DNA of 64,000 nucleotides, taken from Candidatus Nitrosopumilus sp. GTDB taxonomy: Archaea; Thermoproteota; Nitrososphaeria; Nitrososphaerales; Nitrosopumilaceae. Position numbers and translations under genes: made by a program. The notes below the pieces were generated by a model, which was given only the letters and a program-made list of their open reading frames with translations, was not told where the DNA came from and ran no database searches. The stretch's first letter is position 1. Each line of letters begins with the position of its first letter. Positions 41,541 through 49,426 of the stretch are shown piece after piece. The stretch spans positions 482,919-546,918 of the forward strand of contig JABSRD010000001.1 in assembly GCA_013215285.1 (NCBI GenBank), read 5' to 3'.

Positions 41541-42706
41541 TTTATCTAGATAATGCTGCATCTACTCAAATCCATGATGATGTTTTAGATTCCATGCTAC
41601 CCTATCTTAAAGAGCAATATGGTAATCCCTCATCACTTCATCGTTACGGTAGGCTAGCTCATAAAGCAATTGAAAAAGCAAGAAAACAAATTGCTTCTCT
41701 AATTAATGCAGATCCTTCTGAAATCTTGATTACTTCTGGTGGTACAGAATCAAACAATACTGCATTGAATGGAATGCTGATGAAAAATACATCTAGTCAA
41801 ATTATTACGTCATCTATTGAACATGATGCAATTTTGGAACCTTGTAAAAGACTATCCAAAAATGGATTCAATGTTGATTATCTCCCAGTTGATAAATTTG
41901 GTATGATCTCTTTATCTGATCTAAAAAATCATATTTCTGAAAAAACTAGTCTTGTTTCAATAATGTTTGGCAATAATGAAGTTGGCACTATTCAACCAAT
42001 ATCTGAAATTGCTAAAATATGCCATGAATATAATGTTCCTTTTCATACTGATGCTGTACAAGCAATTGGCAAAATTCCAATCGATGTCAAAGAATTACGA
42101 GTAGATTTACTGTCTATTTCATCTCACAAACTTTACGGCCCTAAAGGGATAGGTGCATTGTACATCAAAAATGGTATCAACATTAATCCCGTTATTTTGG
42201 GCGGTGGACAAGAGCATGGATTACGTTCTGGAACTGAAAATGTTGCTAATATTGTAGGTTTTGGCAAAGCATGTGAAATTGCAAAAAATAATCTATATGA
42301 AAATATATCCCATGTAAAAAATCTTCGAGATTTTTTAGTTGAAAAGGTATTGAATGAAATTTCTTTAGTTACTCTTAATGGTCATCATGATATCCGATTG
42401 CCAAATAATGCCCATTTTACATTCCTTGGTGTTAATGGGGAGGATTTGTTGATCAAACTTGACGAGTATGGCGTTGCAGCTTCTACTGGTTCTGCATGTT
42501 CTGTTAATACACAAAAAGCTTCACATGTTTTACAAGCAATGAATTTTTCACATGAACAAATCACAGGTTCACTGCGATTAACTACTGGGATATTCAATAA
42601 TCAGCAAGAAATTGAACAAACAATAGATATTATAAAAAAAGTAGTAGAAGAACTCCGTTCAGTTTCCCCCTTTAAAGAAAAATATTCTTTTATTTCTAAA
42701 AACTAA
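41537..42706 (+). CDS. Cysteine desulfurase (NifS/IscS family)
   Basis: 389 residues, TTG start overlapping the larE stop. IYLDNAASTQIHDDVLDSML, YGNPSSLHRYGR, FHTDAVQAIGKIPID, the PLP lysine in SSHKLYGPKGIG, and the persulfide cysteine in STGSACSVNTQKA are all present. It releases sulfur from cysteine for iron-sulfur clusters or sulfur transferases. Coupling to larE suggests it feeds that enzyme. It meets the first PEFG gene tail to tail (4-base overlap). Confidence 0.93.
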   Translation: MIYLDNAASTQIHDDVLDSMLPYLKEQYGNPSSLHRYGRLAHKAIEKARKQIASLINADPSEILITSGGTESNNTALNGMLMKNTSSQIITSSIEHDAILEPCKRLSKNGFNVDYLPVDKFGMISLSDLKNHISEKTSLVSIMFGNNEVGTIQPISEIAKICHEYNVPFHTDAVQAIGKIPIDVKELRVDLLSISSHKLYGPKGIGALYIKNGININPVILGGGQEHGLRSGTENVANIVGFGKACEIAKNNLYENISHVKNLRDFLVEKVLNEISLVTLNGHHDIRLPNNAHFTFLGVNGEDLLIKLDEYGVAASTGSACSVNTQKASHVLQAMNFSHEQITGSLRLTTGIFNNQQEIEQTIDIIKKVVEELRSVSPFKEKYSFISKN

Positions 42707-43506
42707 ATCTTGATTTGTAATTTACTTTTAGATATAAAAATTATTGTCATGATTCCTATGATCATCATAGCCATTGCAATTGCCCCAAATTCTGGAATTA
42801 CATAAGTTCCAATAATTTCAATATCTGAATCACCATTTTCAAAATTAATTGTTATTACTCTGGAATCTGAATGTACCACTGATTCTTGATATGCAACTTC
42901 TATACCATCAATTAGAATGATGAATGTGTCATCTTTACCATCTTGTTTTTCAGCACCAATAAACTCTCTAGGTAAATCTAATGATATTACTCCTTCATCA
43001 GTTGACTCAATTTGCACTATAATTGCAAAAATATCTGAATCAACTATCATATCTTTCACAGTACCACCTTTGATGGTATATTCCACATCAAATGTTCCAC
43101 TACTTCCTGCATCTACTTCAAAATTAGTTGTAGTTTCAATTGATTCTGATTTTGGAGTATAACTAAATTCAGATTCTGCAATGTTTCCTTCACCATATGA
43201 CACTCTAACTGTATACGTTCCAACCTTTTTCCATAATGGACCTTCAGCAATTACTGTATGTGAATAACTTCCGTCTTGCGCGACTACAATCTGTGCAATA
43301 TCTACAAGATTTCCTTCAGAAAATAATTGCAATGTAATTGGTGTTTCACCTATTACCGTGGTCACCATTCCTGAAATAACTATCGTATCACTTTCATCAT
43401 AATTGTTATCATCTGTTTGAACTGAAATTAGTGATCCTTGTGCAAAAACTGTTCCAGTAGAAATTATTAGTAAAGATATTAGACTGTAAACTATTCTATA
43501 CTCCAC
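42703..43506 (-). CDS. PEFG-CTERM surface protein with Ig-like domain
   Basis: 267 residues. Signal peptide (IVYSLISLLIISTGTVFA), an Ig-like domain with DDNNYDESDTIVISGMV to WKKVGTYTVRVSYGEG, a second beta domain (residues 130-230), then the C-terminal sorting signal YVIPEFGAIAMAMMIIGIMT and a basic end SKSKLQIKI. PEFG signals are thought to be processed by an archaeosortase. First of four such genes; its 3' end is not one of the near-identical copies. A TATA-like stretch at about 43529-43540 agrees with ATG 43506. Confidence 0.85.
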   Translation of the reverse strand: MEYRIVYSLISLLIISTGTVFAQGSLISVQTDDNNYDESDTIVISGMVTTVIGETPITLQLFSEGNLVDIAQIVVAQDGSYSHTVIAEGPLWKKVGTYTVRVSYGEGNIAESEFSYTPKSESIETTTNFEVDAGSSGTFDVEYTIKGGTVKDMIVDSDIFAIIVQIESTDEGVISLDLPREFIGAEKQDGKDDTFIILIDGIEVAYQESVVHSDSRVITINFENGDSDIEIIGTYVIPEFGAIAMAMMIIGIMTIIFISKSKLQIKI

Positions 43507-43543
43507 AAAGTTTTCAATACTAGTTTCTATATTTCCTTTACTA

Positions 43544-43677
43544 TTAAAAATGAAAAAAAATTGTAATTTTAGTATCTTGGCATAATGCTAAGTCTTGACT
43601 TTGCAGAGATTGCAATTATTGAGATAATAGATACTGCTAGAATTATGGCTGCGATTGTACCAAATTCTGGTATTACA
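43544..43677 (-). repeat. Shared 3' end of PEFG genes, copy A
   Basis: About 130 bp covering the last 35 codons and the A/T-rich trailer of the gene at 43569. It differs from copies at 44482 and 48567 by only a few bases, although the gene bodies differ strongly. Confidence 0.9.
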
Positions 43678-44444
43678 TAGGTACCAATAATCTCAATTTG
43701 TTCAGCGCCAGCTGGGAACATAATTGTTACTTTGTTTGCAACAATTTCAATATCATCCCATTCTTCTCCATCTACTAGTACCATGAAGATACCTTTTTGG
43801 ATTGTTTTTGATGGGGTTACAGTTAATGTTCCATCATCATTGGCATTGATGTTAATGATAATTGAATTATCATCTGTATTGAGAGTTGCACTTGTTACTA
43901 TTCCACCTGAAATACTATATGGTATACATTGACCACTTGCAGATATTTCATTAGCACCACATTGTTTGTCTTGTGTTGAATAGTCTGGTGTAAATGCAAC
44001 TCCACCAGTTAGTTCAACTTTTGCACTGTTACTTTTTTCAACACTGCCATAGTTTACTTTAATGGTGTAGGTACCGTCATATTTCCATAATGCACCTGCT
44101 GTGTTTAGTGTTGTCTCAAAACTACCATCACTTGCTAAATTGATTTGAGCAATTGTAACAATAGAATTTAGAGGACTCACAACAGTTACTGTGATTGGAA
44201 ATCCAGATACATTTGCTACTTGACCTTTTACCATAATTATCTCATTATGACTATAATCTGTTTTATCTGTCCAGACTGATACTGGTATGTCTGCTAACAG
44301 CATTTTATGTGCTAGTTCTTTGGCATCTGCAGGAATCATTGTACCTCCTTCTTGATAATGCCCAGTAGCATATGCTGATGACATGGTTAATGTACCGACT
44401 GTAAATAAAACGGCTAGTAGCGCGAACGAAGTACGGCTGTTCAT
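43569..44444 (-). CDS. PEFG-CTERM surface protein with Ig-like domain
   Basis: 291 residues. Signal peptide (FALLAVLFTVGTLTMSSAYA), Ig-like domain from DKTDYSHNEIIMVKGQV to LWKYDGTYTIKVNYGS, a linker with two Cys (KQCGANEISASGQCIPY), a second beta domain and the sorting signal YVIPEFGTIAAIILAVSIIS ending SKSRLSIMPRY-like basic tail. The tail is nearly identical in DNA to those of the genes at 44508 and 48593. Probably anchored at the cell surface; ligand unknown. Confidence 0.85.
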   Translation of the reverse strand: MNSRTSFALLAVLFTVGTLTMSSAYATGHYQEGGTMIPADAKELAHKMLLADIPVSVWTDKTDYSHNEIIMVKGQVANVSGFPITVTVVSPLNSIVTIAQINLASDGSFETTLNTAGALWKYDGTYTIKVNYGSVEKSNSAKVELTGGVAFTPDYSTQDKQCGANEISASGQCIPYSISGGIVTSATLNTDDNSIIININANDDGTLTVTPSKTIQKGIFMVLVDGEEWDDIEIVANKVTIMFPAGAEQIEIIGTYVIPEFGTIAAIILAVSIISIIAISAKSRLSIMPRY

Positions 44445-44468
44445 CTTGTTGCGATTTACACCCGTCTC

Positions 44469-44480
44469 TATTTATGTATA
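44469..44480 (-). promoter_or_regulatory. TATA box of the PEFG gene at 43569
   Basis: Reading the minus strand, tatacataaata is centred about 27-30 bases before ATG 44444, giving a nearly leaderless message. The neighbouring PEFG gene has almost the same box at 45379-45390. Confidence 0.6.
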
Positions 44481-44481
44481 C

Positions 44482-44615
44482 TTAAAAAATGAAAAAAAAT
44501 TGTAATTTTAGTATCTTGGCATAATGCTAAGTCTTGACTTTGCAGAGATTGCAATTATTGAGATAATAGATACTGCTAGAATCATGGCTGCGATTGTACC
44601 AAATTCTGGTATTAC
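44482..44615 (-). repeat. Shared 3' end of PEFG genes, copy B (intact trailer)
   Basis: About 130 bp containing the end of the gene at 44508 and its trailer. Because the trailer here runs uninterrupted into the upstream promoter (tttatgtatacttaaaaaat), this copy shows what the transposon target looked like before insertion. Confidence 0.9.
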
Positions 44616-45353
44616 TTTACCATCTAGAATATCCACTACTATTGAATCAGAATAGTTTGGATTGTCATTTTGATATGCAGTTACAGAGTAATCTCCATTT
44701 TGTTTCCATAATGGTCCACCTACTATAATCTCAGCAGTGAATACTCCGTCAAGTGATGCTGATTCCTGAGCAGTTGTAACCAAATTTCCATTTGGTGCAA
44801 ATATCTGTATTACAACGGCTTGACTAAATCTGTCAGTTATTCCAGTAACTGTGAATCTGTCATCTCCATTTACAAAACTTGCTGCGTCAAGTTCAAGTCC
44901 TGCATCTCTTGTAACGACATTTGGAACAAAAATTCCTGTGTCTAAAGTAGATTCAGTATCAGAAGTTTTTTCAGTCATACCGTTGTTCACTTGAACATCG
45001 ACAGTTAATGTAAAAATTCCTTGACCTTGCTTAGCTTGAATTGTATAGTATCCGTCTTCCTTCCATAAACCAACTTTGAATTTTGCATCAAAGTTTCCAT
45101 TTTCATCTGGTGTTACCTGATCTATGGCTACTACATTATTTCCACTAGGAGATGTTACTCTAAATGTAACATCTGTATATCCTGAAGATGTCATACCTGT
45201 TACTGTAACGGTATCTGAACCTTTATCTGCAGTAGCTGTAATACTCATTCCTTGAGATTGAGCAAAAGCATCTTGCTGAATTGAAGCCATTGAAACTAAT
45301 GACAGTGCCATAAGCATTATTGCAATTGATGTTGTAGAACGTTTAAAATTCAT
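44508..45353 (-). CDS. PEFG-CTERM surface protein with two Ig-like domains
   Basis: 281 residues from ATG 45351-45353; an in-frame ATG at 45368 lies closer to the TATA box than the usual transcription start. Signal peptide (SIAIMLMALSLVSMASIQQD) and two related Ig-like domains: one ending WKEDGYYTIQAKQGQGI, one ending WKQNGDYSVTAYQND. Sorting signal VIPEFGTIAAMILAVSIISI with tail SAKSRLSIMPRY. The transposon inserted just upstream of its TATA box. Confidence 0.85.
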   Translation of the reverse strand: MNFKRSTTSIAIMLMALSLVSMASIQQDAFAQSQGMSITATADKGSDTVTVTGMTSSGYTDVTFRVTSPSGNNVVAIDQVTPDENGNFDAKFKVGLWKEDGYYTIQAKQGQGIFTLTVDVQVNNGMTEKTSDTESTLDTGIFVPNVVTRDAGLELDAASFVNGDDRFTVTGITDRFSQAVVIQIFAPNGNLVTTAQESASLDGVFTAEIIVGGPLWKQNGDYSVTAYQNDNPNYSDSIVVDILDGKVIPEFGTIAAMILAVSIISIIAISAKSRLSIMPRY

Positions 45354-45378
45354 TCTAATTGAAACCATATATCTCGGT

Positions 45379-45390
45379 ATTTATGTATAT
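45379..45390 (-). promoter_or_regulatory. TATA box of the PEFG gene at 44508, next to the transposon
   Basis: On the minus strand atatacataaat is centred about 30 bases before ATG 45353. The transposon target duplication (45391-45398) lies immediately upstream, at the B-recognition element, and the duplication keeps those bases the same. Confidence 0.6.
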
Positions 45391-45398
45391 TTAAAAAA
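45391..45398. repeat. Left copy of 8-bp target site duplication
   Basis: ttaaaaaa directly outside the left terminal inverted repeat, identical to 48567-48574 outside the right one. Eight bases is the duplication length of IS6-type transposition. Confidence 0.9.
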
Positions 45399-45423
45399 GG
45401 TTCTGTCGGGTTGACGGGAGCTA
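45399..45423. repeat. Left terminal inverted repeat of the transposon
   Basis: 25 bp beginning ggttctgtcgggttgacggg. Its complement is at 48542-48566 with 23 of 25 positions the same. The opening ggttctgt is like ends of IS6-family elements. It lies 2 bases past the transposase stop codon. Confidence 0.95.
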
Positions 45424-45425
45424 CG

Positions 45426-46547
45426 TTAGATTGAATTTTCCTTGTAAAGACTAGAATTTTGAATTAATGTAATCCATTTGTTTCTTCCATCCACTTCAAT
45501 CATATCTGCTTGAGCTGGTGTCTTTCCCTTTAATGCACCGTGTTTCTTTGTGAAATTATAGTAAACTTTCATTCCATGTATGATAGGCGTATCAATCTTC
45601 TTTAGACCTCGAAATACTTTCTCACGGTCTCGTATCTCACCATTCAAACGCTCCATTTTGTTGTTGTTCATGTCTCCCTTTAGGTGAATATGTCTAGTGT
45701 GAATAGTCTTTTTTCCAAATATTCTTTTTGATGATTTCATGTATGCTGGCAATCCATCCGTGATGAAACGCGTAGGATTCTTACCGATTGTCTCTTTTGT
45801 TAGTTTTAACAGATTGTCTGCATTATGCTGAAACTTTGTATCTGCCATGTCACTAGCCAACCAGTAACGCGTATCATCATCCATACTGGCAAAAAGATAA
45901 TTCTGTTTTCCTGCAATTTTTATCCAAATTTCATCGGCTCTTACCATTACTCTTTCGTTGGTTCTTGGTACAATTTCATTTAGATAATTATTAACCATTG
46001 TAGAGTATTTTGTTATCCAGTCATAGATGGAACTATGATCAACGTCAATACCCAACATATCAAAATTACATTCAATATCTCTAACACTCATTCCCTGATA
46101 ATACATTTGAAGAGCTTGTGTTATGGTTCTTGAATCATATCTCATCTTTTCAAACCCAAAGTTAGCAGTAAATCTTTTCTTACAGTCAAGACACGCGTAT
46201 CGTTGAATCTTGCCTTTTTTGGTGGTACGCGTTCCAGATTTCTTTATTTTGCCTGAATCACAATATTTACACAATTTTAGTTTTGTGCGTTCCATGATTC
46301 TAAATGTATTGTTACGATAGCATTTGTTCTTCTTGATGATCTCTAATACTATCTTGATGTGCTTACAGTCTGCCTTTCTACATAAATGGTCTTTGCATTC
46401 ACAGATTAAACCGTTATCAGTCTTTGATACAGTGTAATAATTTTCTGGGTTTGTTTGTGATCTTACTGTAAACTTGTTTGGTTCTAGTTGCGAACAATGA
46501 CCTTTTGTTTCCATCATTAATTTTGCTCTTTGTTTTCTTGCATTCAT
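45426..46547 (-). CDS. DDE transposase with N-terminal SWIM zinc finger (IS6-like)
   Basis: 373 residues. A SWIM finger (CECKDHLC ... ADCKHI, residues 49-66) is followed by a zinc ribbon (KLCKYCDSGKIKK to YACLDCKKRF), a helix-turn-helix (MYYQGMSVRDIECNFDMLG), then the DDE core: first Asp in VRADEIWIKIAGKQNYLFAS, second in RFITDGLPAYMKS, Glu in NNKMERLNGEIRDREK. The IS6-type core moves DNA by a copying mechanism with cointegrates. Intact from end to end, and its TATA box sits inside the inverted-repeat operator at 46561. Confidence 0.9.
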   Translation of the reverse strand: MNARKQRAKLMMETKGHCSQLEPNKFTVRSQTNPENYYTVSKTDNGLICECKDHLCRKADCKHIKIVLEIIKKNKCYRNNTFRIMERTKLKLCKYCDSGKIKKSGTRTTKKGKIQRYACLDCKKRFTANFGFEKMRYDSRTITQALQMYYQGMSVRDIECNFDMLGIDVDHSSIYDWITKYSTMVNNYLNEIVPRTNERVMVRADEIWIKIAGKQNYLFASMDDDTRYWLASDMADTKFQHNADNLLKLTKETIGKNPTRFITDGLPAYMKSSKRIFGKKTIHTRHIHLKGDMNNNKMERLNGEIRDREKVFRGLKKIDTPIIHGMKVYYNFTKKHGALKGKTPAQADMIEVDGRNKWITLIQNSSLYKENSI

Positions 46548-46560
46548 ATAATAATATTAT

Positions 46561-46595
46561 CCGTTCGGTTATATAATATTTACTTAACCGAATGG
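46561..46595. promoter_or_regulatory. Inverted-repeat operator around the transposase TATA box
   Basis: Arms ccgttcggtta (46561-46571) and taaccgaatgg (46585-46595) are complementary at 10 of 11 positions. The 13-base spacer is tataatatttact, whose minus-strand reading supplies a TATA box about 27 bases before the transposase ATG (46547). A dimer bound to the arms would cover the TATA box. The divergent AbrB-like gene begins 41 bases away. Confidence 0.7.
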
Positions 46596-46635
46596 TTACG
46601 ATAAATTTAATTAATCTGTTATTGTAGATTGTTTT

Positions 46636-46812
46636 ATGACAAAATGGAAAAAAGGTGCAACAGAGTTTGAAATGAACGTAATTGATGACCGTAAAGGTAG
46701 TCGTTATGTAAGAATACCAAAACCACTTGATGAGAAATTAGGCAATCCTGAAAAGATAAAATTTGTGATTAAAAATGACAAAATTTCAATTACAGGCAAA
46801 CTGAATACATAA
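46636..46812 (+). CDS. AbrB/SpoVT-like DNA-binding protein of the transposon
   Basis: 58 residues from ATG 46636 to TAA 46810-46812. The central SRYVRIPKPLDEKLGNPEKI followed by IKFVIKNDKISITGK matches the swapped-hairpin AbrB fold (strand, IPK turn, helix, two strands). A TATA-like gataaattt lies about 30 bases upstream. Divergent from the transposase across an inverted repeat, so it is a natural candidate for the repressor of transposition; this is inference. Confidence 0.65.
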   Translation: MTKWKKGATEFEMNVIDDRKGSRYVRIPKPLDEKLGNPEKIKFVIKNDKISITGKLNT

Positions 46813-47078
46813 GATCTAATGTAGTGGATGTATTTACCACAAGACTTTAGGGATGAACCCCGAATTACAATATCAGAAGATGACAAATGCAATTAGATTT
46901 TAATTCATGTCCCGTCTGAAAATACCTTTATCAGGTCTCGATAATGCAACAGAACCAAAAAATCATTATTACTAAATAGTGATTTTTTATGGGATCTATA
47001 CACAACAAACAAAACCACATTGTTTGTTTAATTCATTCATATAGAACTGCTTTTAATCCAGATTGGTGTATACTTAAC
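46813..47078. other. Non-coding stretch with an internal right-end-like sequence
   Basis: No convincing gene. The bases 46932-46956 (reverse complement starting ggttctgttgcattatcg) agree with the right terminal repeat at 19 of 25 positions in the same orientation. This is where a simple transposase-plus-regulator insertion sequence would be expected to end. Confidence 0.6.
46932..46956. repeat. Internal right-end-like repeat 1
   Basis: Reverse complement begins ggttctgttgcattatcgag. It shares 19 of 25 positions with the true right end at 48542-48566, including the first eight. It could close a 1558-bp core element starting at 45399. No matching target duplication is visible beside it. Confidence 0.6.
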
Positions 47079-47264
47079 ATGGCAAAAATAAAATTCAGAC
47101 ATATTGTTCAATTCCCATCTGTAGATTGTACTGAAAGAGGTTTTGAAACTTTATGTTCTTCACAAAATGGGTTTTCGTATCTGGGCGACAATAAATATGA
47201 AATTAACACAAACCAGAAAAATGCTCTAGATATACAGGGAATTCCATACAAAACACTCCCTTAA
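47079..47264 (+). CDS. 61-residue protein of unknown function in the transposon
   Basis: From ATG 47079: MAKIKFRHIVQFPSVDCTER, then GFETLCSSQNGFSYLGDNKY, ending IQGIPYKTLP. The frame is open upstream to 46989, but this ATG has a TATA-like ttttaat about 28 bases before it. It looks like a small alpha/beta protein with two cysteines. It is followed 14 bases later by another plus-strand gene. No homology recognised. Confidence 0.5.
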   Translation: MAKIKFRHIVQFPSVDCTERGFETLCSSQNGFSYLGDNKYEINTNQKNALDIQGIPYKTLP

Positions 47265-47278
47265 TTTTTGTGATTAAA

Positions 47279-47632
47279 ATGAGTTCTTTTCCAATTATTG
47301 TTCAAATGGATATTATTTTTTCAAGAACAAAAAATTTTAAAAATGCAAAAATAGGGAAAACATTTCATAAAATTATCGAAGAATCTATTTCAAATTTAAA
47401 ACCTAATGGGGACGGACCAATAAAAAGCCAAATACGTATGGCAAAATGTTATATTCGTAATAATGCCGCAACTGAATTTACTTGGACATTAAATTTATCG
47501 GTCTCTAAACTAAATGAAGAAATTACAAAATCATTAATGGAATTAAGAAGTGGTATTAAGAAAGATTTTGAGAAATGGGGAAAGTATCATGTAATACTAA
47601 AACAAATGACAGCAATCTCTGCACTAGAATAA
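47279..47632 (+). CDS. 117-residue protein of unknown function in the transposon
   Basis: From ATG 47279 (a GTG at 47270 is also in frame): SSFPIIVQMDIIFSRTKNFK, AKIGKTFHKIIEESISNLKP, then IRMAKCYIRNNAATEFTWTL and a C-terminal helix ending MTAISALE. Predicted strand-helix-strand-helix. The stop codon falls inside the second internal end-like repeat. Family not recognised; role in transposition or defence unknown. Confidence 0.5.
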   Translation: MSSFPIIVQMDIIFSRTKNFKNAKIGKTFHKIIEESISNLKPNGDGPIKSQIRMAKCYIRNNAATEFTWTLNLSVSKLNEEITKSLMELRSGIKKDFEKWGKYHVILKQMTAISALE

Positions 47633-47654
47633 CACCCGAAGATTACACAGAACC
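47630..47654. repeat. Internal right-end-like repeat 2
   Basis: Reverse complement begins ggttctgtgtaatcttcggg; 17 of 25 positions agree with the true right end. It lies exactly between the two-gene unit at 47079-47632 and the nuclease gene at 47658. Weaker than repeat 1, and part of the agreement may be chance. Confidence 0.4.
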
Positions 47655-47657
47655 CCT

Positions 47658-48494
47658 TTATTCCAACAGGTCACGCGAACCTATCTCATTTGTTAATCCC
47701 AAAACATGAACCAAATTCTCTAGATTTGCTGAGCTAATCTTACATTCATTATGTGCCATTTTAAGCGAACGCGGATAACCCCCTACACTTTCAGACAATA
47801 ACGCATCCATGATTTTCTTAATGTCATTTTCAGTGTGATCACCACCCATTAATTCAATTTTCATTAATGGTGTATCTTCACTTAGACGCGCGTATGTTGA
47901 TGTGATAAGTTGTGAGTGTCCATGTGAAGAATCAACAAAGAGTTTACTAAATCCTGTTTTCCTTACTGCATGATTATAATAGAAAATATCCCCAGCAATA
48001 GAGTCATATTTCTCAAACTGCTTACGCGAGTTTGATGTTTTCCCAATAAAGACTACATTGTTATTTTTGGTCAAAACTCCTTTTACGTTTCTTAATGGAG
48101 TAAGTTTTGATGTAAAATGTGAATATAGTGAACCGTCCATTAAAACATAATCAGCATGATCTGTTGTTTGTTCACACGCGTCAATTTCCATCTTTGCAGC
48201 TTGTTTAGATATTTCCTCATTTTCTCTGCCTAAACCAACTTTAAATTCACGCGCGCGCGTTTCATTTTTTATATTTATTGAGATTACATCTGTAGCCCAC
48301 AAAAATAACCCCTGATATTTTTTGGTGTTAAAACTACTGTCAATCCCAAAAAGATTACTTTTTTTCTTTGTTGGCGCGTAAGTTATCCAATTCTCTTTTG
48401 CCTTCTTTGTAATATCATCAAATTTTTTATCCTTTAGAATGGATGTTATTTCTTCTCTGTTTTTCACTACAAATTCAGTGATTTCTTTTAGCAT
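47658..48494 (-). CDS. NurA-domain nuclease carried by the transposon
   Basis: 278 residues. NurA features in order: first catalytic aspartate in NLFGIDSSFNTKKYQG, VLMDGSLYSHF with the second, the KTSNSRKQFEK segment, FVDSSHGHSQ, KIELMGGDHT, and the C-terminal GYPRSLKMAHNECKISSANL with the conserved His. NurA is a Mn2+-dependent 5'-3' exonuclease and endonuclease that normally acts with HerA in end resection; no helicase is nearby. The gene contains many CGCG runs and unusual codons. It is not a normal cargo of IS elements. Confidence 0.8.
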   Translation of the reverse strand: MLKEITEFVVKNREEITSILKDKKFDDITKKAKENWITYAPTKKKSNLFGIDSSFNTKKYQGLFLWATDVISINIKNETRAREFKVGLGRENEEISKQAAKMEIDACEQTTDHADYVLMDGSLYSHFTSKLTPLRNVKGVLTKNNNVVFIGKTSNSRKQFEKYDSIAGDIFYYNHAVRKTGFSKLFVDSSHGHSQLITSTYARLSEDTPLMKIELMGGDHTENDIKKIMDALLSESVGGYPRSLKMAHNECKISSANLENLVHVLGLTNEIGSRDLLE

Positions 48495-48541
48495 GAAAAA
48501 AATTTAGGTTATTCATTAATTAATTGATCCACGCGCGTTTT

Positions 48542-48566
48542 TAGCTCCCGATAACCCGACAGAACC
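48542..48566. repeat. Right terminal inverted repeat of the transposon
   Basis: Reverse complement begins ggttctgtcgggttatcggg; differs from the left end at two adjacent positions only. Followed at once by the 8-bp duplication. Confidence 0.95.
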
Positions 48567-48574
48567 TTAAAAAA
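48567..48574. repeat. Right copy of 8-bp target site duplication
   Basis: ttaaaaaa, identical to 45391-45398. Joining the two flanks through one copy restores the trailer-promoter junction seen intact at 44469-44500. Confidence 0.9.
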
Positions 48575-48694
48575 TGAAAAAAAATTGTAATTTTAGTATC
48601 TTGGCATAATGCTAAGTCTTGACTTTGCAGAGATTGCAATTATTGAGATAATTGCTACTGCTAGAATCATGGCTGCGATTGTACCAAATTCTGG
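48567..48694 (-). repeat. Shared 3' end of PEFG genes, copy C
   Basis: About 128 bp comprising the last 35 codons and trailer of the gene at 48593, nearly identical to copies A and B. Its outer edge coincides with the transposon insertion point. Confidence 0.9.
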
Positions 48695-49426
48695 GACTAC
48701 AAATGTACCGATTATTTCGATCTCTTCAGCTCCTGCTGGGAATGCTATGGTAAGTGTTCTGTCAGTTGATGTTGTTATTTCATCAAAGTCTACTTCTTCT
48801 CCATCAATCAAGACAAAGAAATCATCATCTCCGCCATTAATTGTTGCATCCATCACAGATCTAGGAATTGTGAGTGTAAGTGAACCATCGTCAGTAGCAT
48901 CAATGGATATGATTAGTGAATTTGAATCCACATCTGGAATAATACTAAGTAATTTTCCACCTGTAATTTCATATCCTATCAAGTCATTTCCTTCACCAAC
49001 TGAAACAGTTGTGTCAGTTACTGTTGATGTGATTTGATCTACTGGTTCTTCAGTAACACCACCAAATTCAAATGATGTTGTTCCTGAATTATTTTTGTTG
49101 TCGCCATATTGAACTGTAATTGTATATGTTCCCTCAACTTTCATTAGTGAACCACCTGCAGCAAAACTAGTGCTGATTTTTTTATCTGATCCAACAGTAA
49201 GCTGATCAATGACAACAATATTGCCATTTGGTGCTACTACTGTAAGCGATAAGGCATATCCGCCTAAAAGTTGAGAAACCTCTCCTGTAACTAAGATTGT
49301 ATCACCTTCTGAATAGGATGCTTTGTCTGTAGCTACTACAACTGAACTTTGTCCAAATGCTGGTGCTAAACCAATACTTGCAATCAAAATTGCAGATAAG
49401 GCAAACACTGTTAGATGAGCTTTCAT
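48593..49426 (-). CDS. PEFG-CTERM surface protein with Ig-like domain
   Basis: 277 residues from ATG 49424-49426; the frame stays open to 49480, but the TATA box at 49445 and the signal peptide (AHLTVFALSAILIASIGLAP) support this start. Ig-like domain DKASYSEGDTILVTGEV to VEGTYTITVQYGDNK, a second beta domain with DDGSLTLTIPRSVMD, then the sorting signal VVPEFGTIAAMILAVAIISI and SAKSRLSIMPRY. Separated from its three paralogues by the transposon. Confidence 0.85.
   Translation of the reverse strand: MKAHLTVFALSAILIASIGLAPAFGQSSVVVATDKASYSEGDTILVTGEVSQLLGGYALSLTVVAPNGNIVVIDQLTVGSDKKISTSFAAGGSLMKVEGTYTITVQYGDNKNNSGTTSFEFGGVTEEPVDQITSTVTDTTVSVGEGNDLIGYEITGGKLLSIIPDVDSNSLIISIDATDDGSLTLTIPRSVMDATINGGDDDFFVLIDGEEVDFDEITTSTDRTLTIAFPAGAEEIEIIGTFVVPEFGTIAAMILAVAIISIIAISAKSRLSIMPRY

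Follow-up and report, generated by a model that had tools for sequence, protein, structure and literature searches.

Members of the IS6 family are held to transpose by cointegrate formation followed by host recombination, and they usually encode a transposase only; the single passenger-bearing member named in the survey of Varani et al. (2021; PMC7986276) is ISDsp3. For archaea, passenger-carrying DNA transposons with diverse genes were stated to be undetected, and one tandemly integrated casposon pair was described in Thaumarchaeota (Krupovic et al., 2019; PMC6563490). Here we describe a 3168-bp, single-unit element at positions 45399-48566 of a 64-kb stretch of contig 1 (contig positions 482919-546918, hereafter the window) from a genome of 1.66 Mb that is 99% complete and, to judge from the closest named NurA relatives, of the Nitrosopumilus type. 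We read it with considerable confidence as a cargo-bearing, single-unit IS6-family transposon ("tIS") with an 8-bp duplication, inserted directly upstream of the TATA box of a PEFG-CTERM gene, and as one of a large archaeal family with exchanged cargo.

An IS6-type element, its empty site and its relatives

Comparison of the termini showed that the left end, GGTTCTGTCGGGTTGACGGGAGCTA (45399-45423, plus strand), matches the reversed right end, GGTTCTGTCGGGTTATCGGGAGCTA (48542-48566, minus strand), at 23 of 25 positions, and inspection of the sequence found an exact copy of the 8-bp target-site duplication TTAAAAAA on either side of the element (45391-45398 and 48567-48574, neither assigned a strand). 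Both ends take the form GGTTCTGT; they are short, begin with GG and contain a CTGT motif. In a blind scoring search for GG...CC inverted ends accompanied by a duplication, the element scored 24, and the 60 random anchors in related DNA that served as a control scored at most 21. The genome holds one full copy and, the element being single-copy, it is the perfect duplication that suggests recent activity.

The transposase is a 373-aa protein encoded by an open frame at 45426-46547 (minus strand), which scored 128 bits against the NCBI IS6 model (cut-off 125). A SWIM-like zinc site (C49/C51/C61/H63) and a second, cysteine zinc ribbon lie N-terminal of a helix-turn-helix and a DD(34)E core, and both zinc sites are conserved in 46 related elements, as are D205, D264 and E299, the spacing between D264 and E299, and R306, the K/R residue seven positions past E299. 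A search of solved structures returned no relatives of the transposase and did return relatives of the NurA protein described below. The DD(34)E transposase with its K/R residue, the GG/CTGT ends and the 8-bp target duplication place the element in the IS6 family, and it is a tIS in that NurA and small ORFs, which are not transposition genes, lie between one pair of IS ends. The preliminary description of this DNA had reported 25-bp inverted ends with 23 matches, an 8-bp duplication on both sides, an intact DDE transposase and a complete transposon with exact ends and a reconstructible empty site; all of these were recovered, the element being a complete IS6-type unit transposon.

Two other architectures were rejected. 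A composite (pseudo-compound) IS6 transposon would have two full IS copies, whereas there is one transposase gene here and the ends are only about 25 bp, and for a casposon both the Cas1 integrase and PolB are absent among the ORFs of the element.

The flanks joined via one TTAAAAAA gave a gapless, end-to-end alignment in about 20 congeneric genomes at 86-90% identity, and in these congeners the empty site sits between the same two PEFG-CTERM genes. In the window these are the target gene (44508-45368, minus strand), whose second in-frame ATG (45353) is 45 nt away from where the target starts, and the gene on the far side (48593-49426, minus strand), whose 3' trailer meets the right duplication. 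The TATA-like box of the target gene, CATAAATA (45378-45385, minus strand), lies 5 nt beyond the duplication and is intact after insertion. An uninterrupted paralogous copy of the target junction at about 44469-44500 (minus strand) matches the joined flanks, which together with the bare sites of the congeners bears out the earlier proposal that the joined flanks restore this junction. Relatives carrying the passenger genes here without inverted ends were looked for and not seen, the relatives having the bare site, nor did the ends fail to occur together elsewhere, equivalent ends being paired on dozens of elements. The region from 42703 to 49426 is a tandem cluster of PEFG-CTERM genes in which the 3' end and promoter junction is repeated, a repetition that accounts for the presence of several empty-site copies in one genome.

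A survey of 185 Nitrosopumilaceae genomes, each at least 80% complete, found a related transposase (E<=1e-20) in 74. Delimitation by inverted ends, from about 80 fetched loci, yielded 48 Nitrosopumilaceae elements of 1855-6198 bp (median about 3.3 kb), 40 of them with a target-site duplication of at least 8 bp and several with perfect ends of 50-80 bp; 13 more elements, of 2.9-6.6 kb, were found in other families of the phylum. None of the 48 was a bare IS with a transposase only. The earlier remark that cargo is unusual for IS6 agrees with published surveys, in which ISDsp3 is the one passenger-bearing member (PMC7986276), but in this archaeal clade cargo is the norm. These elements form a large and apparently undescribed family that shares its transposase type, ends and target preference and exchanges its cargo.

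Target geometry

Targets were analyzed on joined flanks, and counting repeated targets once reduced 38 elements to 26 non-redundant sites. An ORF-opening ATG lay 42-48 nt from the start of the 8-bp target, an interval picked after the sites had been seen, in 25 of the 38 elements and at 14 of the 26 sites, compared with 4.9% of random positions (P ~2e-12) and 4.6% of random intergenic-like positions. A YTTWWW box starting 4-6 nt past the duplication was found at 13 of the 26 sites and, in the other families, in 8 of 13 elements, whose sites had already been inspected when the TATA test was written; the expectation in both cases was 4.1%. The box began at +5 in 12 of 26 and 7 of 13, respectively, forming a peak about 1-3 nt wide. 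The effect is far larger than post hoc choice of window or test could produce, and promoter targeting by the elements of this family is strongly supported. At about one third of sites no start codon could be called in the expected range, and two or three sites fall within ORFs (L098, L092). What had been described as a trailer-promoter junction is a recurrent target in the family.

Leaderless transcripts are common in archaea. If the transcripts at these sites are leaderless, the target would cover approximately -45 to -38, directly upstream of BRE/TATA, and the duplication would therefore leave the core promoter intact.

Guidance of the transposase by promoter-bound TBP/TFB fits both this geometry and the way in which real promoters are preferred to TATA-like hexamers that stand alone. 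It is possible that the transposase alone reads a TATA-like motif and that no transcription factor is involved, a reading that we take seriously without favoring it: the most prominent sequence feature of the targets is a block of A/T at a constant offset, but the TATA sequences used differ widely, and such hexamers are common outside promoters, yet 10 of the 13 boxes at Nitrosopumilaceae sites are accompanied by a start codon at a distance of 40-60 nt, as compared to 12% of background YTTWWW hexamers.

Cargo of the element and its relatives

The preliminary description counted four passenger genes, which holds as a count of ORFs, but one of them recurs in relatives. This is the gene for a 58-aa protein (46636-46812, plus strand), divergent from the transposase gene, with homologues of 36-50% identity beside the transposase in related elements; because it recurs in several of these, it looks like a core companion of the transposase rather than variable cargo. 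The protein resembles AbrB/MazE by eye only, a Pfam search having given no match, and in other family members a different short gene occupies its place, two of these with MazE/AbrB-type Pfam matches. The next ORF, of 91 aa (46989-47264, plus strand; likely start 47080), overlaps a region, 47011-47248, that matches part of a decayed element in genome G099 at 92% DNA identity. A 120-aa ORF with no assigned function follows (47270-47632, plus strand; likely ATG 47279), for which no relatives were found in 250 genomes of the family and no match in Pfam. In genome G099, a stretch at L096 5828-8615 encodes a prokaryotic E2 protein (PF14462) and a ThiF protein with a weak JAB match. Beside these genes lie a DNA methyltransferase in truncated form, ends resembling those of the elements and an ORF that closely matches the 91-aa ORF of the window; the stretch probably represents decayed elements with ubiquitin-like conjugation cargo.

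The fourth gene encodes a 278-aa NurA-domain nuclease (47658-48494, minus strand; PF09376, E=5e-12), in which the catalytic residues are present; these, D52, E103, D120 and H248, are conserved in at least 97% of 71 NurA alignment rows. The host genome retains its own intact NurA, 48% identical to the transposon protein, and in a NurA tree the transposon copy falls outside the main host clade, on a long branch of uncertain position. Scans of viral contigs found no NurA and one weak transposase match, giving no sign that this NurA came from a known virus. PADLOC gave no match to it, so no defence claim is made for NurA from that library. With its catalytic residues in place, the protein could form a DNA-degrading barrier together with host HerA, or could aid recombination.

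It seems unlikely that NurA is carried to serve the element itself, by boosting HerA/RadA-dependent recombination and thereby resolving IS6-type cointegrates. The idea draws on a reported role of NurA in archaeal end resection (PMC12977600), on the resolution of IS6 cointegrates by host recombination (PMC7986276) and on the radA promoters as an insertion hot spot, but NurA is unique to the window element and absent from every other delimited element of the survey, the host has an intact NurA of its own, and sister elements whose transposases are 73-78% identical have entirely different cargo, for example restriction-modification genes, or none of note.

Cargo across the family, as assigned by Pfam scans and PADLOC, is rich in restriction-modification genes. 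Pfam matches included a HaeIII endonuclease with a D12 methyltransferase (L086, from the same genome as the window), a HinP1I endonuclease with a D12 methyltransferase (L174), type I HsdM and HsdS (L091, and also L195 in another family), type IIG enzymes (L094, L131), methyltransferase-HNH fusions (L097, L175), a methyltransferase with an Mrr-like domain (L129), other methyltransferases (L156, L173) and a GmrSD-HNH protein (L162), as well as Fic (L170) and an OLD-like ATPase (L184). Proteasome-subunit-like hydrolases recur in four elements (L091 12975-13787, L153 3696-4529, L154 3821-4747 and L179 6295-7269). The PADLOC matches were chiefly type II/III methyltransferases and MADS mad2, and many cargo genes had no match in either scan. 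The cargo of the family most likely consists of defence or addiction genes. The HaeIII-type pair belongs to a further complete element found in the host genome (L086 3020-7315, contig 19), which is 4296 bp long, has inverted ends matching at 82 of 83 positions and an 8-bp duplication, and also contains a 122-aa ORF that is GIY-YIG-like by eye only.

Hot spots, proposed mechanism and comparison with known systems

Seven elements from seven genomes, differing in transposases, ends and cargo, occupy the PEFG junction ATTTATGTATAT/TTAAAAAN or a near variant (the window element, L147, L155, L161, L165, L166 and L170), and in an eighth genome (L227) a remnant some 110 bp long persists at this junction. 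At the same PEFG target, L217, L218, L224 and L236 (genomes G086, G134, G138 and G089) each have an insertion of about 40-50 bp, possibly what is left of a decayed element. The radA promoters were struck in seven fetched stretches (L084, L091, L137, L145, L148, L149 and L153), the radA target in the window's own genome being at L084 7241-7290 on contig 22. A conserved inverted repeat, TACCGTAC-N-ATACGGTA, precedes the radA start and is a possible operator. Among 51 elements, 13 directly abut the end of another element, always on the TATA-distal side wherever the TATA side could be called; in L091 two elements share three copies of TGTTTTAG, and in L148 a stack contains four copies of one 8-bp target, TGTTTCGA. 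Repeated insertion beside a surviving promoter would produce this pattern.

Selection by itself is an improbable source of the target preference. Were insertion to occur anywhere in AT-rich DNA, with survivors only just upstream of core promoters, the removal of intragenic insertions from dense archaeal genomes and the limited harm done where the TATA box stays intact would both help, but unrelated copies strike the identical 8 bp repeatedly, the offset peak is just about 1-3 nt wide (+5 in 12/26 and 7/13), and insertion at gene 3' ends or in the gaps between convergent genes would do no more harm, yet only 4.6% of random intergenic-like positions fit the start-codon rule. A chance arrangement or a degenerate composite element, to which the single full copy in the genome might point, can be dismissed given the exact duplication, the paired ends, the bare site in relatives, the dozens of like-built elements and the absence of flanking IS copies.

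The element with its ends and duplication, the empty site, the family, the variety of its cargo and the target geometry were all observed, and from these we infer a mechanism in which the transposase would pair two GGTTCTGT ends and join them to the target at an 8-bp staggered cut lying about 38-45 nt ahead of a start codon. It would probably be directed to this position by promoter-bound TBP/TFB or by bent TATA DNA. The reaction is probably replicative, by analogy with other IS6 elements, with the cointegrate resolved by host RadA recombination. Because the duplication would keep the core promoter whole, insertion may be nearly harmless and the same site would stay open to further hits, giving stacked elements. 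The cargo would most likely pay its way as defence or addiction genes, here probably a NurA-like nuclease working with host HerA.

Taken to its full extent, this model describes a transposon family that locates its targets via the archaeal basal transcription machinery (TBP/TFB on TATA), inserts at one fixed, promoter-sparing position and thereby accumulates defence-type cargo in stacked arrays at radA and other strong promoters, a parallel to yeast Ty3; we put it forward tentatively, at a little under an even chance. The yeast elements Ty3 and Ty1 integrate at a constant position ahead of genes, beside complexes that contain TBP. The likeness is one of targeting only, Ty3 and Ty1 being retroelements with unrelated integrases and Pol III targets. 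A search of the open-access literature, which is weak evidence and limited to that scope, found no archaeal transposons aimed at promoters or TATA boxes. What is new here is the IS6-type variant, and its target preference is the most unexpected property.

Cargo-bearing elements are widespread in major ammonia oxidizers, moving restriction-modification and other probable defence genes, in contrast to the stated absence of passenger DNA transposons from archaea (PMC6563490) and to the view that IS6 members are almost always bare. The fixed TATA offset offers a directly testable case of transposon targeting by archaeal transcription machinery, and the elements represent a natural safe-harbour insertion system for archaea that have no genetic tools.

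Insertion sequences and casposons of Thaumarchaeota (PMC6563490) come from the same host group, and tandem integration is known for one casposon pair, but casposons use Cas1. The described IS6 elements (IS26, IS257, IS240; PMC7986276) share with the archaeal ones a DD(34)E domain that passes the IS6 model, GG...CTGT ends and an 8-bp duplication, whereas the archaeal elements add N-terminal SWIM-like and zinc-ribbon domains, are 1.9-6.6 kb long, carry cargo as a rule and insert at promoters. ISDsp3 likewise has a passenger and an IS6 transposase between one pair of ends, but its passenger is one hypothetical gene in one bacterium, as against restriction-modification and other cargo in dozens of elements from archaea.
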